Positions 2,767-46,970 of a DNA stretch of 47,337 nucleotides are shown in pieces; the stretch's first letter is position 1, and each line of letters begins with the position of its first letter. This DNA is from a virus, in IMG/VR virus record IMGVR_UViG_3300017971_000385, positions 1-47,337 of that record; one strand, written 5' to 3'. Both the position numbers and the translations under genes were made by a program. Below the pieces are notes generated by a model. That model saw only the letters and a list, made by a program, of their open reading frames with translations, was not told the DNA's origin and did not search any database.

Positions 2767-3744
2767 TCACGATAGGAATAGTGGCAAATTCCTCACTACC
2801 TGCCGCTCTACCCACTGATAGGTTTTGGCCATTCCATCTTCCAGCGAGACCTGCGGTTCGTAGCCCAGTACCTGCCGCATGATGGTCAGATCGGCATTGC
2901 GCGATCTAACTCCTTGCGGCCCACCTACGTGAACTTTCTCTATCCCTATCCCCGCCGCGCTGGCCGCGATGTCGTACATCTCATCTACAGAGACCAGCCG
3001 ATCTGTGCCGATGTTGAGCGGTTCGCGGTAGTCGCTCTCCATCAGCCCAAGCACCATCTCCAGGCAGTCGTCGATATAGCAGAACGAGCGGGTAGCCAGG
3101 CCATCGCCCCAGATCTCTATTTGATGTGAATGTGTCAGCTTTGCCACGGCCACCTTGCGACAGGCTGCCGCCGGGAGCTTTTCGCGCCCGCCAGTCCAGT
3201 CTCCTTCCGGGCCATAGACGTTGTGGAAGCGGGCGATTCTGGCTTCTGTCCCGTGCTCCTGGGCCAGATACAGAAATACATCTTCCCCAAACAGCTTCTC
3301 GGAACCATAGGCCGTATCGGGTCGACCGCGCCAGGCATCGCACTCCTTGAGCGGGTTGACCCGTTCGACCATTTGCAGGCATTCGGGATAGACGCACGCG
3401 CTACTGCTGAAGAAGACCTTGTCCAGCCCGTGCATACAGGCGGCACGGGCGGTATTGAGGTTGATACGGGCGTTATTGCGCAGGATGTCGCAATGGTTGG
3501 ACGAGATGAATCCCGCGCCGCCCATATCAGCGGCGAGGGCAAACACGGTGTCCGTGTTACCGAGTGCCTCCCATGCCGACCGCTCGTGACGCAAGTCCAG
3601 GATCAAAAACTCATCTGCTGCCGTCTCCGACCATTCTGGCCTTTTCAGATCCACGCCACGCACCCAGTACCCATCTCGCTTCAGCCGCCGCGTGAGATGG
3701 CTGCCGATGAACCCACCTGCACCGGTGACCGCGATTCGTTCCAT
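2767..3744 (-). CDS. GDP-mannose 3,5-epimerase-like NAD-dependent sugar epimerase
   Basis: 325 residues of the extended short-chain dehydrogenase family. The NAD site is VTGAGGFIGSHL at the N-terminus. AADMGGAGFISSNH, SSSACVYPE, YGSEKLFGE, RFHNVYGP, GGREKLPAAACRK and ATRSFCYIDDC closely follow plant GDP-mannose 3,5-epimerase, including its catalytic Cys (in SSAC.YPE) and Lys (in GREK.PAA) and the Y-x3-K pair. That enzyme converts GDP-D-mannose to GDP-L-galactose and GDP-L-gulose. The start (MERIAVTG) overlaps the upstream dehydrogenase stop by one base (TGATG); the longer open frame upstream is a shadow of that gene. Substrate is inferred from motif likeness. Confidence 0.85.
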   Translation of the reverse strand: MERIAVTGAGGFIGSHLTRRLKRDGYWVRGVDLKRPEWSETAADEFLILDLRHERSAWEALGNTDTVFALAADMGGAGFISSNHCDILRNNARINLNTARAACMHGLDKVFFSSSACVYPECLQMVERVNPLKECDAWRGRPDTAYGSEKLFGEDVFLYLAQEHGTEARIARFHNVYGPEGDWTGGREKLPAAACRKVAVAKLTHSHQIEIWGDGLATRSFCYIDDCLEMVLGLMESDYREPLNIGTDRLVSVDEMYDIAASAAGIGIEKVHVGGPQGVRSRNADLTIMRQVLGYEPQVSLEDGMAKTYQWVERQVVRNLPLFLS

Positions 3745-4991
3745 CAGCCTACCCCTATCTTGATGAGCTGTATTCCCTTCGGTACATGTTCCACGATATT
3801 CCAGCAGTCGATCACGATCTGGTTCTGGAATGGCAAGATACCAAATTCCGGATAGGGCAGCATGATGACGACGACGTGTGCCCCGTCTATGGCAGTCTCT
3901 GCCGACCGGCCCTCTATCATCGGATCGTGAGCGACGACGGTGAAAGATTCCTCCACCAGCCGCTCTATCAATGCCATGGATGGTGAGTCCTCGGTGATGT
4001 GTGTGCCTGCTTTGTAGGCCAGGCCCAGGATGGCCACACAATCTCCCCGCTTGGCTACTTTCTTGACTTCTTGGACGATGCGCTCTATGCCATATTCATT
4101 GAGCTGATGAATCGCATCTGGCAGGGCGGCAGGCATCCATAGATTCCTGGCATAGGCCGATAGCGCCCGGTTGTCCCGTGGAAAGCATGGCCCGCCAAAC
4201 GGGGGACCGGGCCGCAAGTACTTGGAACTGATGCGTGAATCCAGACCGAGAAAGTTCATTACGTCATGAGAATTAGTATGTGGCACACTACGGCATAGCC
4301 AGCCAATGAAATTGGCGAAGCCGATCTTCGTGGTCAAAAAGCAGTTGAGTGCCAGCTTGGCTATCTCTGCCGTGGCGGCGTTCATGGTGGCGATGGGTGG
4401 ATCGTTCTCGCAGACTCGCCGGTAGATGTCTGCCAGCGTCGCCGCCGCCAGTGGGTCCTCGCTGCCGATGAGCACGGCATCCGGCCTGAGTAGCCCATTG
4501 ATGACGTTGCCCAGGGCGATGAACTCCGGGCTATAGCACAACCCGAAGTCACGCCCACATACTGCCCCGCAACTTTCCAATGCATCCTTGATAGGCCCCA
4601 TCGTCGATCCCGGCATGACCGTCGAGGTGATGACGATCAGATGATAGGTATCTGACCACGACATGCCTTCTGCAATATCGTGGCAGGCGGCGATCACATA
4701 GTCATTGCTGAATCGCCCGTCGGGACCCGACGGCGTGGGGACGATGACGAACGTCGCCTGGGTAGAAGCCACTGCCTCGGCGGTGTCTGTCGTCGCCGCC
4801 AAATCTACCCTGGCCTTTCCGATAAGTTCTTGCAGCCCCGGTTCCCGCACTGGAGCCAGGCCGTCGTTGAGGGCATCAACGTTCGCGCTGGCTTTGTCCG
4901 CGCCGATGACCTTGAATCCACGAGACGCCAAGACGGCAGCCAGTGGCGAGCCAAGCTTGCCCAGGCCGATGACGGATATGGTGTCGATCAT
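3744..4991 (-). CDS. UDP-glucose/GDP-mannose 6-dehydrogenase family
   Basis: 415 residues. The N-terminal NAD fold begins ISVIGLGKLGSPLAAVLA and binds the dinucleotide. FVIVPTPSGPDGRFSNDYV, YSPEFIALGN and ALNCFLTTKIGFANFIG are family signatures. GGPCFPRD carries the catalytic Cys that forms the thiohemiacetal in the four-electron oxidation of C6 to a uronic acid, and ILGLAYKAGTHITEDSP begins the C-terminal domain. The start at 4991 was chosen because AGGAG lies 7 bases before it; further upstream the frame has no family likeness. UDP-glucose and GDP-mannose substrates cannot be separated by eye. Cotranscribed with the epimerase. Confidence 0.85.
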   Translation of the reverse strand: MIDTISVIGLGKLGSPLAAVLASRGFKVIGADKASANVDALNDGLAPVREPGLQELIGKARVDLAATTDTAEAVASTQATFVIVPTPSGPDGRFSNDYVIAACHDIAEGMSWSDTYHLIVITSTVMPGSTMGPIKDALESCGAVCGRDFGLCYSPEFIALGNVINGLLRPDAVLIGSEDPLAAATLADIYRRVCENDPPIATMNAATAEIAKLALNCFLTTKIGFANFIGWLCRSVPHTNSHDVMNFLGLDSRISSKYLRPGPPFGGPCFPRDNRALSAYARNLWMPAALPDAIHQLNEYGIERIVQEVKKVAKRGDCVAILGLAYKAGTHITEDSPSMALIERLVEESFTVVAHDPMIEGRSAETAIDGAHVVVIMLPYPEFGILPFQNQIVIDCWNIVEHVPKGIQLIKIGVG

Positions 4992-6112: not shown

Positions 6113-9100
6113 TCAATGCTCCTTTAGCATCCTCACTTCTTTTTCAAGTTCCAATATACAGCCATGCAAGAATCCAACGTACTCGTTCAGGCTGTAGCCT
6201 ACGACGTTGCCGGTAGCATCACGGCTTACCGCGCCCGGCAATTCACGCTCCAGGATCGGATCGTCGGCAACCAGCCCGACGTGACGACGCTGCCACCTCG
6301 GCAGCCCCCGTCGCTGTTCCCGCAACCTGTCCCGCTCTGCCGCTATCCATAGCTTGATGTCCCTTCTACGAAGTTTTTTCTCGGTCAGAAGATCCTCTTC
6401 GTCGCCCGCGTCGATCCGCTCCATCGCGGTACGGGCATCTATGAACGGCTCTGTGCCGGTGAGGACTATACCAAAATTGCGCTCTGCCGCCCGGATCAGC
6501 TCTTCTGTAGAGACGAACGGAACGCGGCGATAGTCGTACAGCGGAATGGCCCTCAGCTTGCGCAAAAAGTCACCCGTCGAGACAGGTCGTATGTCCCCCT
6601 TCCACTTTGCCAGGCTGTGGTTATCATAGCCATCGGCAATCATGTTGCCGGAGCCTTGATTCACGTCGAGGATCTGGCCCGGTGCAGACGTACCAATGCC
6701 AACGTTACCTCCCGACAGGGCAATGATGCGCGGGGCCAGTGAGCCAGCACTTGCCGTGTAGAAAGATATTTTCCCGCTGTTGTCCGCCCCATCGCGCTGG
6801 GTGGCGATGACACAGATCGTGTTTTCGACACCGGCGACATCTTCAATAACGTAGTTGGTATTTGCGCCAAAGCCGTCTACCATGTTATAGGCCGTCGTGA
6901 CGTGGAGCTTGAACGCGGCTGATGCCGATCCGGTCGCGCCAACATACCGCTCGCACTCGACAGGAATTCCCGTATCGTAGACGTGGAGTTTGGTCGTCGG
7001 CGCATTGAGACCCATACCGACCTTCCCGTCAGAACCACGGATGAATAAGGCGTTTGGCTGCCCAATCCCCTCGACACGAAAGTCGATGTCTGCCCCGTCC
7101 TGGTTAATGGCGACCTCTCGCTGTGCATCCGTGCTGATGACGGTTAGATAGTCGTTGGCATCGCCGGCGTCTACGATGTGGAGAGCGTCGGCCAGGTTGT
7201 CCGGCACCCTGATGGTATTTTCACCCGTGGCGCTGGTGAATCGCAGATCCGCCCCGCCAACCGTGTACAGGTCTCCAGCGCCATCGTAATACCAGCCCTT
7301 GAGCGCCCCTGAATTGTTGATCGTGCCGTTGACCAGCGTCGGCCCAAAGAGATAGACCGTATCGGTGGCCGCAACCTGGATGTCGTAGGTTTCACCATCG
7401 TAGCGCCCGCCCTCAACTATCAGCGTACAACCATCGCCATCGGTGAGAATGGCATACCCATTGCCACCGTTCACCGTGGCTATGCCGTCACAATTCGTCA
7501 GCCGGTTGATATTTGCGCCGCTGATGCGATATGCACCGGCGTGTGCCGATCCGCCAGCGTTGGTGTTGTCCGCCAGGGCAATTACATCTCTGATTTCTGT
7601 CAGACTGCCATTGAGCCTGACGGCGTAGATGGCCGCCGCATTGGACTGCGAGTTGTTCACCCGAAGAGCAGACAGAAAGCAACTTGCATTGAGGGTCAAC
7701 GTGATAGTCTGAGTCGTCGTCTGGAGAGTTGTCAGATCCCGGCTCAGGCCACTCAACGTCCCGAAGGCCAGCAGCGTCTGGTTGTCACAGGTATGCGTCT
7801 CTGGCGAGGCAAGAATCTGCTCGCTTGCGCCCAGGGCGGCAATAGCTGCCGCAATGGTGCTATAGCCAGCGCCCGCCGCCGCCGTGTCCACAGAAAGCCC
7901 AGCGGTGATAAATGGCCAGCCATATTGCGGGTGGTCGTCGTCTGCCAGCCCGGCCAGGTAACCGTGGTCTGCCGGTCGCCAGTAGTTTGTACCAGAAGCG
8001 GAGTATACCAGTACATTGCCTTCCGCTGGTGTGACATCGCTTAGAATCGGATCGCCATAAATCCCAACTACGAGCGGATCGGGATAAGTCCCGGTCAAGT
8101 CGCCGCCCGCCGCCCCGACCGGCGGGTATCCTGATGGCAATGGCATGGGCTGCCAGATAGAGCCCGTGAAGATGAGGGCCTCTCCTTCCGACGGGGCGGC
8201 GTTGCTCAAAGAATAGCCAAAGAGCCCGGCGACATTGGGATCGGGGTATGAACCGGTCAGGTCACCGCCCGCTGGCCCGGTCGGTAGCATACCTCCAGGA
8301 TCGAGTGGCTGCCACATGGAACCGGTGTAAATGAGATGGTCACCCTCACTCGGCACGGCGGGAGATATGGGCTGGCCCTGGATGGCCCTGACGGTCGGGT
8401 TGGGATAAGTGCCGGTGAGGTCTCCGCCGGCGGGGCCGCTCGGTCTCGCCGTCGGGCTGGCCCATAACTGGCGGGCGTCCCAGATGTCGCGCTCTGAGAT
8501 ACTGCCCTGGCCGCCGTAAATGCGCACGTAAGCAGAGGGGAACCATGTGCCTGTGGGCAGGGCAGGGCGGGCAAGCTCTATGGCATCCGAGTACACATCT
8601 ATCGAACCGGTCACTACACCACAGACGTTGCTTTCCATGTCCAGGTAGGTGAGCATCAGCCGGGCCGTGCCCGTGACGGGGGTCGCCGCCGACAGGTCGA
8701 GTCCGGGCAGGCCACACCACGAGATGGGCGATCCATCCCACAAATAGTCATAAGGCGCAACGAAGACAGACTGTGATCCGGAACCGAGTGGATAGGTGCG
8801 CAGGGGGGCGATCTGGCGGCGGTAGATGTTGAATGAGTCCGTGCCGACAAAGCCGTCGCGCCAGACGTGTGTCTCTCCGTGCCGGGCAACACCGGCATAG
8901 CCCGCACCCCAGCCGACGGCGGCGTAAGTCTCCCAGTCCACGCCCACGATCTGGGTCATGCCCGGCTGCCAGGGCAGTTCCCCGATAAGTACCGGTGTCC
9001 CATCGCCGCCGGTTACCTCTTTGTTGAAGATCTCTACCACGTCGTCAGACGAGCGGGACGGGCGAACGTAGGAATAGTCGGGGCGGTCGGGGACTTGGAT

Positions 9101-9238: not shown

Positions 9239-12200
9239 CACCCAGATGATAGCCGGGTAGCCTGCTGCGCCATCTCCGGCTCTCGGCAAGTCTGCCCCAT
9301 CTGCCGCTATCCATGCTGCTGTATACGGTGTGGGCTGCTGGACTGCCGCATTACCCGCGCCCGCCGCCGGTGCATCTCGGTTGATGGCGAGTATATCCGC
9401 GTCTGTGCCCCAGTGCCTACTCACACCCGCCGGATCGACATCGAACGGCATGTCGTTGAGCTTTGCCCAAGTCACGTGGTCTGTCGTGCGCCACAATTCC
9501 GCCGCGCCGTTCAAGACAGCCAGCACCTCCAATGTAGCGGGCGTCTCCAGCGCCCCTATCCACGAGGTGCTGCCGGTGCCCCACGTCGGTTCATCTATGA
9601 TGTCCATCGCCGCCCCCGAGTCCGTGGAGTAGCCCAACCGGTTGGTGCCGGTGTAGCTGAACCGCCCGAAGGCGTAGACGTTATCGCCAAAGTCCGCCGT
9701 TCCGGGCTGGTGCGGGCAATGGGGCGCAGCCCAGAACGTCCGCGCCGTAACCTGGGCGGGCGTCGCTGCCCCAAGGGATACACTGGCTACGCGGTTCATC
9801 GTCGCCGCATCCCAGGTCTCCAGGAACAAGAAGTTGTCATAATTGGCGGTCAGGTAGAGTTGTGTGCCCGCCTCGGTATCGAGATCCATCCTGATAGGGC
9901 GCACGTCCCCGGTGTGGATGGTCAGCGCCGTGAAGGCCAGTTGAGAGACGACACAATGGTCTGGCGTTCCCCCGGCCCCCTTGTACGTCGTCGGGATGAC
10001 GCGCACGAACTTGTCAGCGACGGCTACCCCACTGGTGACCGTCGTACAGATCACTGAACCCTGGCTGCCGCTCTGGGTATCGACAGCCGTCCACGTCACC
10101 TGGTCGTCGCTGGTCTGGATGCGCAACCGCATATACTCGGTGATCACGCCATCTTTCAGTGGCCGCCGCCCGGTGACGGTCGTGCTGGAGAAGGACAGCT
10201 TGAAGGGATAGCGCAGTGGCATCCACCGTTCGCCACTGATAGTCTGGAACCGGGCTACCCATTGGACAGCGTTAGCACATGGTGAATCGTATATCTCCCA
10301 CACCGGTGGGTCGCTGCCGATGTTAGCGCAGTACTGGGCATCGGCATACCATTCCTGCCGCCCCTGCTCCACGAAGTTGAAGGTATAGTCCTGCCCGGCC
10401 ACGTAGCCGGTCGGGGGTGCGCCAAGAGATGTCCAGTCCCAACTCAACCCGTCCGTCGTCGTCTTGGCCAGCCATCCGCGCCAGGCCGATCCGGTGCTGG
10501 CCCATTCCGCCAGAAGGTAGAAGGTGTCTTTGTTGTGTATGTCCCCGTGGATCTGAAGATAGGTCAAGTCGGTCTTGGTCGGTGCGGTCGCATCGCCCCA
10601 CGTGTTGGGTGGGTCCGACAAATAGATGGTATAGTCCTGCCAGTTGTTGCCCGCATCGCTGCTACGGGCAACGAACCCGCCACCCGCACCCCACAAGATG
10701 GCCTGCGCCGGGTCGTGCCCACCCGTCTTGTCCCTCCACCAGGGATCCCAAATGAGGTCGGAAAAGTCAAGCTGTGTCGCCGCATCCAGGCCGTTGACGT
10801 GTCGCGTCCAGGTCGCGCCCCCGTCCGGCGTGCGGTAGTGGCCCATCGCCCCGTCTGCTGCCACGGCAGGCCCGGCGTTGGGGTCTGCTGGAGGCGTCCA
10901 AGATGGCGACGGGGGCAAGTCCCAGGTGGGCAGTTCTGGATCTGGCGGTGTCGGCGGCATGATGACCGTCGCGCCCGCATGGGTGCCCGTGACAACCGGC
11001 TCGAATTCCACTTCTTGCCTGATGAGGCCCAGGGCATGGTCATATTCCCGGCTGATGCGCCTCGCCAGGAGTGTAGGGCTCCAGGCCAGCGCCCTGTCGT
11101 TGTCTGCCGCCAGGAGGGTGAGCGGGTAGGGGTTTTCCGGTGCGATGGAGAACGCTCCATCGTTCAGGAAGTTGGCCCGAAAGGCCGGATACCGCTGGGT
11201 GTCGCGCCCCAGCATCCGCCCGCATCTGATATTGAGAATGGCCTGAGTATTGAGGATATAGGATCCTGCCCCGCCCTCCTGCCCGTAAGCTTTTGGGGCG
11301 TCGCCGGGTGCCTCCGAAAAAAGGGGGACTACCTCGCCTTCGGAACCGGGATAGTAGATACCAGACAGCTTGATGACGTTGACCGGCCACTCGTAGTCTG
11401 CCCGCTCTTCTATCGTGGCATCGTTCGCCCAGATAGCTTTAGCCAGCGCCTTTTGTGTGGTTTTGGCAGCCCTTTCGGTATCAAGCATCAGTTGGTGATC
11501 GACAATATGGTGAAGTACCCCCTGGTGATCACACACCACGCGCCCGAAGGCATTTTCCATCAGACCGCTGATATTGGCATGGAGGTTGTCGGGTGCAAAG
11601 TCCTGGCGGGCGATCTCGGGGCGATATTCACACGGTAGGATGGGAGCCATGAGCGAGAGGGTAGAGCGCCAATGCCACAGAAATGACAGCGCCCTATCCA
11701 CGTCGAGGTGCGAAGCGGTGACCCACGAGGCCGGGCCGCGCTTGTCGGTGAGTGATACCGGCCAGGTGGTCGTATTGCGCATGACGGCATCTATCGTCGC
11801 CGCCCTGAATGACACGTCGCCATTCATCGGGTCTTGGCGGATGGTATCGCCCAGGAGATGGCCGACGAACAGCACGTTGCTCCTGAACGGCCATCCGGCA
11901 TCCGGCGTGGTCAGGTCGCCACGGCAGGCCAATACGACGAGGGAACCTTCTGGAAAATCATCTATGTCACAGTCGCCATGGACGGTGAAAGAGCATTCCC
12001 CGCCGCCCTGCTCAAAGTCCATGCTATCGTTGAACGCATCGAAGTCAGTGTAGGCTACCGCCGTCGGGTCTGTCGGGTCTATGACGAATGCCCAGGTGTA
12101 GTTTGTGCCCGTCACATTATTGGCGTCGTGGACGCGCAGGTTGACCAGGTATTGTCCGTCGTCTGCCCAGGTGAACGTAGTCGGCGTGCCCGTCGTGCCC

Positions 12201-45344: not shown

Positions 45345-45373
45345 ATTTTAGCACATTTTGTGCTATACGTCAA
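45345..45373 (-). promoter_or_regulatory. Late promoter with operator in its spacer
   Basis: Minus-strand -35 TTGACG (45373-45368), 17-base spacer, -10 TAAAAT (45350-45345). TAGCACA-TTT-TGTGCTA (45349-45365) is an exact inverted repeat filling the spacer and touching the -10 box, the layout of a repressor or activator site. It drives the terminase and downstream genes. Confidence 0.8.
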
Positions 45374-45434
45374 TTGAAACGAGGACACATTCAGTCTTGA
45401 TTTTATCGTCAAGAAATAGGGCAATTTCACCGCT

Positions 45435-45489
45435 AAAACACGATTTGTCTTGACTTTTGCAGGGTTATGGTGTATACTGGATATAGAAA
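45435..45489 (+). promoter_or_regulatory. Rightward promoter module, copy B
   Basis: -35 TTGACT (45450-45455), 17-base spacer, -10 TATACT (45473-45478). It is the near-identical copy of 39119-39173 and drives 45527-46046. It is divergent from the late promoter, with ~60 bp between them, so the two may be controlled together. Confidence 0.85.
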
Positions 45490-46046: not shown

Positions 46047-46048
46047 AA

Positions 46049-46136
46049 GTTTCAATCCCCTATCAAGCGGGGCAATCTTTGTGACTAGTTGCAGGTGCTG
46101 TCGTTCTTGGCCTGGTCCTGCTTGTTTCAATCCCCT
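46049..46136 (-). CRISPR. Mini-CRISPR-like element: full repeat, 38-nt spacer, partial repeat
   Basis: A 37-nt unit (46049-46085) begins GTTTCAATCCCCT, holds CCCC-8-GGGG able to form a hairpin, and read on the minus strand ends in ATTGAAAC, the classic crRNA 5' handle of type I/III systems. After a 38-nt spacer (46086-46123) the first 13 bases, GTTTCAATCCCCT, recur (46124-46136) and then the sequence diverges. The 75-base period is normal for CRISPR. No cas gene is present. The sense strand is probably minus. A single array remnant or a phage-borne mini-array are both possible. Confidence 0.6.
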
Positions 46137-46226
46137 GGTGCTCATGGAGGGTGCGACGGGCGCGCCCTCAAGCGAATAATGTACGTGATGGACCTCGGGG
46201 ACGTCCTGGGGGATGAGGCGTAACGC
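46137..46226. other. Gap between CRISPR-like element and the next gene
   Basis: About 90 bases without a convincing gene. Two very short frames are present (one starting MYVMDLGDVLGDEA). No promoter or terminator was recognised. Confidence 0.2.
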
Positions 46227-46556: not shown

Positions 46557-46970
46557 ATGATAGTATCATCAGCTCTTCTCAGGTTTGAAAATTTGGAACA
46601 GGCGCGCCAATCGCTTGGGCTGGGAGTGAAGGGTTATTCCCAGCCATCAAAGGTGCGCCGGCTTGAGGGCGATTTCAGAACGCAAAAGATGCCGGCGCTC
46701 CTATCTCCCTGGGAAGCGGCGCCATCAAAGGTGCGCGCCGCAGAATGCGCGTACCGGGACTGGTGCGCGCTAAGGGACATTGCCGCATGGAATCGTGTTC
46801 ACGAGATCCATGACGGCGGGGTGCGGACCAAGGGTGGATGGAGCGTTACTTTGGGGCGTAGGATCCGCTCCGGAAAAATCCCGCCCATCCGGCGGGTGAT
46901 TTGTGAATGTTGGAATCTCATGATAGGAGAAGATGGGCACGTTTATGTGCCTATTTATTCTGAATTGTGA
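46557..46970 (+). CDS. Hypothetical protein, 137 aa
   Basis: GGAGG lies 5 bases before the ATG. The middle repeats PSKVR twice (QPSKVRRLE, APSKVRAAE), encoded by an exact 16-base repeat. The C-terminus (RTKGGWSVTLGRRIRSGKIPP, VICECWNLMIGEDG) is a possible small DNA-binding or enzyme domain. No family recognised. A strong hairpin follows the stop. Confidence 0.5.
   Translation: MIVSSALLRFENLEQARQSLGLGVKGYSQPSKVRRLEGDFRTQKMPALLSPWEAAPSKVRAAECAYRDWCALRDIAAWNRVHEIHDGGVRTKGGWSVTLGRRIRSGKIPPIRRVICECWNLMIGEDGHVYVPIYSEL

Follow-up and report, generated by a model that had tools for sequence, protein, structure and literature searches.

The stretch of DNA analysed here, referred to throughout as the window, is an entire IMG/VR virus record (IMGVR_UViG_3300017971_000385; 47,337 bases, without a terminal repeat). 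The record is a contig only, and the phage genome may be incomplete. Genes for terminase, portal, head, tail and tape measure proteins occupy its minus strand, which also carries a surface-polysaccharide cassette encoding nucleotide-sugar epimerases, a UDP-glucose dehydrogenase, an aminotransferase, several glycosyltransferases and a GtrB-like protein. Towards the right-hand end, beyond the terminase genes, lies a plus-strand cluster of small uncharacterised genes, and it is within this cluster that a short repeat-spacer element is found (Table 1). A PADLOC search of the 53 proteins encoded in the window returned no match to cas or defence-system proteins. The carrier is a phage contig, as the sequence-only reading had taken it to be.

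Table 1. Coordinates of the repeat-spacer element and of other features of the window.
Feature	Position	Strand	Remarks
Surface-polysaccharide cassette (example)	2767-4041	-	
Divergent promoter-like pair	45345-45480		between terminase genes and plus-strand small-gene cluster
Sigma-70-like promoter, TTGACT-17-TATACT	45450-45478	+	consensus match only; ahead of plus-strand cluster
Small ORF, 78 aa	45527-45763	+	first gene of plus-strand cluster
Small ORF, 86 aa	45786-46046	+	stop two bases before repeat; no known family
Full CRISPR-type repeat, 37 nt	46049-46085	-	Rfam RF01323, fold, class shared with bacterial arrays
Spacer, 38 nt	46086-46123	-	between both repeat copies; length fits class arrays
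Truncated second repeat, 13 nt	46124-46136	-	100% identical to first 13 nt of full repeat
Small ORF, 81 aa	46227-46472	+	weak DUF2274 similarity, under Pfam cut-off
Flanking ORF	46557-46970		no relatives found
16-nt perfect direct repeat, GCCATCAAAGGTGCGC	46643-46658 and 46721-46736		78 nt apart (26 codons), in flanking ORF

The organization described in the sequence-only reading, a 37-nt repeat, a 38-nt spacer and a 13-nt partial repeat with a 75-base period (37+38) that begins two bases after the stop of a small gene, is borne out by direct reading of the sequence, the TAG of the 86-aa ORF being followed by AA only. The full repeat has the plus-strand letters GTTTCAATCCCCTATCAAGCGGGGCAATCTTTGTGAC and reads GTCACAAAGATTGCCCCGCTTGATAGGGGATTGAAAC in the crRNA sense, where it is predicted to fold into a CCCC/GGGG hairpin adjoining an 8-nt ATTGAAAC handle; both hairpin and handle are perfectly retained. 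The partial repeat (GTTTCAATCCCCT on the plus strand, AGGGGATTGAAAC in the crRNA sense) comprises the handle and the 3' arm of the hairpin, and is located upstream of the spacer. The motif GTTTCAAT occurs twice in the window, both times within the element. Beyond its 13 conserved nucleotides this second, handle-side repeat has diverged from the first (17/36 identical), with loss of the 5' arm of the hairpin. Pairing for its GGGG is available in 21% of random flanks, and a hidden full-length second repeat with a hairpin of its own was rejected as an interpretation, as refolding with the flank performed no better than chance, unlike the case of a second phage contig (L009) described below.

When the whole 47-kb window was searched against all Rfam models, the sole match was to CRISPR-DR10 (RF01323), which aligns with the full repeat on the minus strand over its full length (model positions 1-37 of 37), at 29.5 bits and with E = 0.0098 for the 47 kb searched. 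This score falls below the RF01323 gathering cut-off of 39 bits; repeats from undisputed multi-spacer bacterial arrays obtain 29.8-30.5 bits (L011) and 27.7-28.8 bits (L022) with the same model. Because the match runs from end to end, and because true arrays score alike, the 37-nt boundaries and the assignment of the ATTGAAAC-ending minus strand as the handle-bearing one, both of which had been proposed from the letters alone, are supported.

The 13-nt direct pair is unremarkable when taken by itself, since such pairs at this spacing recur in real phage DNA: Markov-1 windows contain 0.07 pair-positions per window, but such pairs are more frequent in real phage DNA, 85 kb of related viral loci containing 30 overlapping 13-mer pair-positions. 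The window itself contains another closely spaced pair, the 16-nt repeat listed in Table 1, which lies in frame within its ORF and specifies the peptide PSKVR twice, and is thus a coding duplication rather than CRISPR. The frequency of such pairs is one reason to consider, judging from the assembled contig, that the element might be a chance resemblance, or a chimeric assembly join at 46047-46137; another is that no related phage was found to cover the junction (DNA similarity to the best phage relative, L002, stops at the packaging genes, with none toward the element). What makes this explanation unlikely is the coincidence of the RF01323 match with the exact repeat boundaries, the true-array period, and the presence of small same-strand ORFs on both sides. 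The element stands above chance in that it provides the only Rfam match in the window, in the equal scores reached by true arrays, and in the position of the second copy, exactly one 37+38 period further on, as in arrays of this repeat class. Judged by these sequence features, the window repeat is a genuine CRISPR-type repeat.

Bacterial relatives of the repeat were identified with a stem-based pattern in a genome collection of 84,980 species. Arrays of this class were found in one metagenome-assembled genome (MAG) each of Bacillota (L011, L019), Planctomycetaceae (L016, L017), Terriglobia (L018), Chloroflexota (L020) and Nitrospinota (L022), and in ADurb.Bin157 (L012, L013, L021). Their repeats are 37 nt in length, nearly all with periods of 72-79 nt, and are identical to the window repeat at 24-29 of 37 positions (29/37 for the best relative). 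A search for relatives of the repeat, which had been suggested as a check, thus succeeded at the level of the class but returned no array with the exact repeat, which was present in none of the genomes of the 84,980-species collection and none of the viral contigs searched. No near-identical repeat was found in the genomes, 400 Chloroflexota genomes contained none with three or fewer mismatches, and a literature search for the letters of the repeat found no paper.

Several of the bacterial arrays are accompanied by CRISPR-associated genes: next to the L011 array are matches to the type III-D proteins Cas7, Cas5 and Csm3, the L022 array adjoins Cas6, and the L021 array adjoins a match to the CRISPR-associated primase-polymerase model. 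By sequence comparison, the CRISPR-DR10-like repeat class to which the window repeat is assigned is therefore one found beside type III genes. The window repeat resembles CRISPR-DR10 and the L011 and L022 arrays in its 37-nt length, CCCC/GGGG hairpin, ATTGAAAC end and bit score (28/37 positions identical to L011, 25/37 to L022). In contrast to these arrays, however, the window element has neither a multi-spacer array nor adjoining cas genes, and nothing like the type III-D genes beside L011 is found in the window.

Cas-less viral mini-arrays, to which the sequence-only reading had appealed, are an established class, those of phages lacking the host leader (PMC6858448, PMC7099407, PMC11656645); phage and archaeal-virus mini-arrays are described by Medvedeva et al. 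2019 (PMC6858448) and by Faure et al. 2019 (as cited in PMC7099407 and PMC11656645). Such elements carry one or two spacers flanked by CRISPR repeats in a carrier without cas genes, the repeat being that of a host array and the spacer directed at a related virus. The window element shares with them a single spacer between CRISPR repeats, an intergenic position, the lack of a host-type leader, and the absence of cas genes (among the 53 proteins searched with PADLOC, in a contig that may be incomplete), and differs in that its handle-side repeat is only partial, being truncated to 13 nt; in the collections searched, it also yielded neither a host array bearing this repeat nor a convincing spacer target. 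The element is most probably a CRISPR-derived phage mini-array, a kind of element that is already known and to which the window adds a further case.

The same stem-based pattern, applied to viral contigs, gave a single match, in a phage contig encoding terminase and portal/minor head proteins (L009; IMGVR_UViG_3300028835_000281). In this mini-array, a repeat of the class, 37 nt long and scoring 27.7 bits with RF01323, is combined with a 37-nt spacer and a second element (6612-6651) whose likeness to the repeat is confined to the 8-nt ATTGAAAC handle and which forms a 6-bp hairpin of its own (z = -3.3); L009 thus presents a mini-array with two different repeats, the second hairpin being distinct and strong. 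The window and L009 elements are alike in repeat class, in possessing one spacer and a handle-sharing second element, and in lying between two same-strand genes with the crRNA strand antisense to both. They differ in the hairpin of the second L009 element, in their unrelated spacers, and in the location of the L009 element within the head-gene module.

Scanning more broadly for pairs of GTTTCAAT repeats gave 78 viral stretches; 28 two-repeat cases, the window included, were tabulated, about 11 of which are chance pairs sharing 9 nt. In the viral two-repeat elements of L026, L080, L062 and L084, it is mainly the handle-hairpin half that is alike, the rest being different. L026 (~3211-3310) and L080 (~11575-11680; reverse-complement coordinates) share a two-repeat element in which similarity extends, unlike in the case of ordinary spacers, to the 'spacer' and to the sequence flanking the second repeat, and which is possibly a fixed RNA element.

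Recombination with host arrays has been suggested as the way in which phage mini-arrays acquire their spacers (PMC6858448, PMC7099407), and the window element might accordingly be a dead relic, a repeat-spacer fragment taken up in this way and now decaying without function. The reduction of the second repeat to 13 nt points in this direction, as do the failure to find a leader or promoter for the element and the lack of a convincing spacer target. In the full repeat, however, hairpin and handle are perfect and the score equals that of repeats from live arrays, and a second phage, L009, carries an element of the same class in a similar layout; we regard a dead relic as unlikely, but as a close rival of the main account. 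The worn end of a host array, named as an alternative in the sequence-only reading, may likewise apply.

The spacer search covered phage and plasmid records and viral contigs, and produced no convincing match. With the element as BLAST query, phage and plasmid records returned chance-level matches only, and a wobble-degenerate scan of viral contigs with the spacer gave no match. The central 20-mer of the spacer has one match, extending to 22 exact nt, in the Mu-type portal gene of contig L101, where 26/38 positions are identical overall; an exact 20-mer match is expected about 0.1-0.2 times (estimated from the approximate size of the collection). This gene was rejected as a protospacer on account of the short exact match, the low overall identity and the chance expectation, and is also at odds with the portal family, as the spacer would give Q and N at positions occupied by M in nearly all aligned portal proteins and by a small residue in most of them, respectively. 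On these sequence comparisons, the match is probably due to chance. A reading of the spacer as a membrane-protein ORF (VAGAVVLGLVLLVSIP...) was likewise set aside: the frame is open, but no usual start codon follows the repeat, and the wobble-degenerate scan gave no support. No second copy of the spacer is present in the window, which therefore shows no self-targeting.

A consensus scan detected no sigma-70-like promoter upstream of the element for the minus (crRNA) strand. The nearest upstream promoter-like site on the plus strand is that at 45450-45478, which drives the strand opposite the crRNA; judging from its position and orientation, read-through from this site would transcribe the element in the orientation opposite to that of the crRNA. 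The earlier proposal that the element uses host Cas proteins against rival phages thus found no backing in an exact host repeat, a convincing protospacer or a crRNA-strand promoter.

Phages have been demonstrated to mimic CRISPR repeats, as in the Racr RNA anti-CRISPRs and solitary repeat units described by Camara-Wilpert et al. 2023 (PMC10651486), where those tested in detail concern type I systems (I-F, I-C). The window element resembles these in having one intact host-type repeat with hairpin and handle in a phage genome, and its intergenic position within a cluster of small uncharacterised genes would also suit a Racr-like RNA, in which a transcript of the intact repeat serves as a decoy that occupies host Cas6 and effector subunits and the spacer is incidental. 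By definition, however, the 100 bp flanking a solitary repeat unit must be free of partial repeats (PMC10651486), and the identical 13-nt copy one period (75 nt) away would exclude the window element from that definition, which we applied by hand. The element also differs from Racr in possessing a spacer and in having no promoter directly upstream; with no promoter for the repeat strand, and neither an acr nor an aca gene recognisable in the vicinity, the decoy reading appears improbable.

Two further readings are very unlikely. The element might belong to a group of minimal crRNA genes of phages in which selection retains only the handle, with or without a hairpin, 5' of a single spacer; or, transcribed like the flanking genes from the plus-strand promoter, it might produce an antisense RNA able to pair with the repeat portions of host crRNAs. 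The antisense placement is common to the window and L009.

Our overall account, the case for and against which we judge evenly balanced, is of a cas-less, single-spacer phage mini-array derived from a bacterial array with 37-nt CRISPR-DR10-like repeats, and encoding at most one crRNA. Were the minus strand transcribed, host Cas6 would be expected to cut the intact downstream repeat, giving a product that consists of the ATTGAAAC handle, the 38-nt spacer and the hairpin, which would be loaded into a host effector as a single crRNA of the phage's choosing, most likely directed at a competing element. That the element works as a crRNA in this manner is a tentative proposal, and on balance a doubtful one. 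With the handle-side repeat cut short, it is uncertain whether the 5' end would be trimmed, and the element may therefore be weak or already decaying; given this truncation, the absent promoter and the lack of a convincing target, a decoy or a decaying relic are real alternatives.

If inactive, the element would document that a phage and a host array have recombined. If active, it would be a minimal RNA gene by which a phage exploits or blocks a type III system, and the layout, similar in the window and L009, would then offer a concrete minimal design to test.
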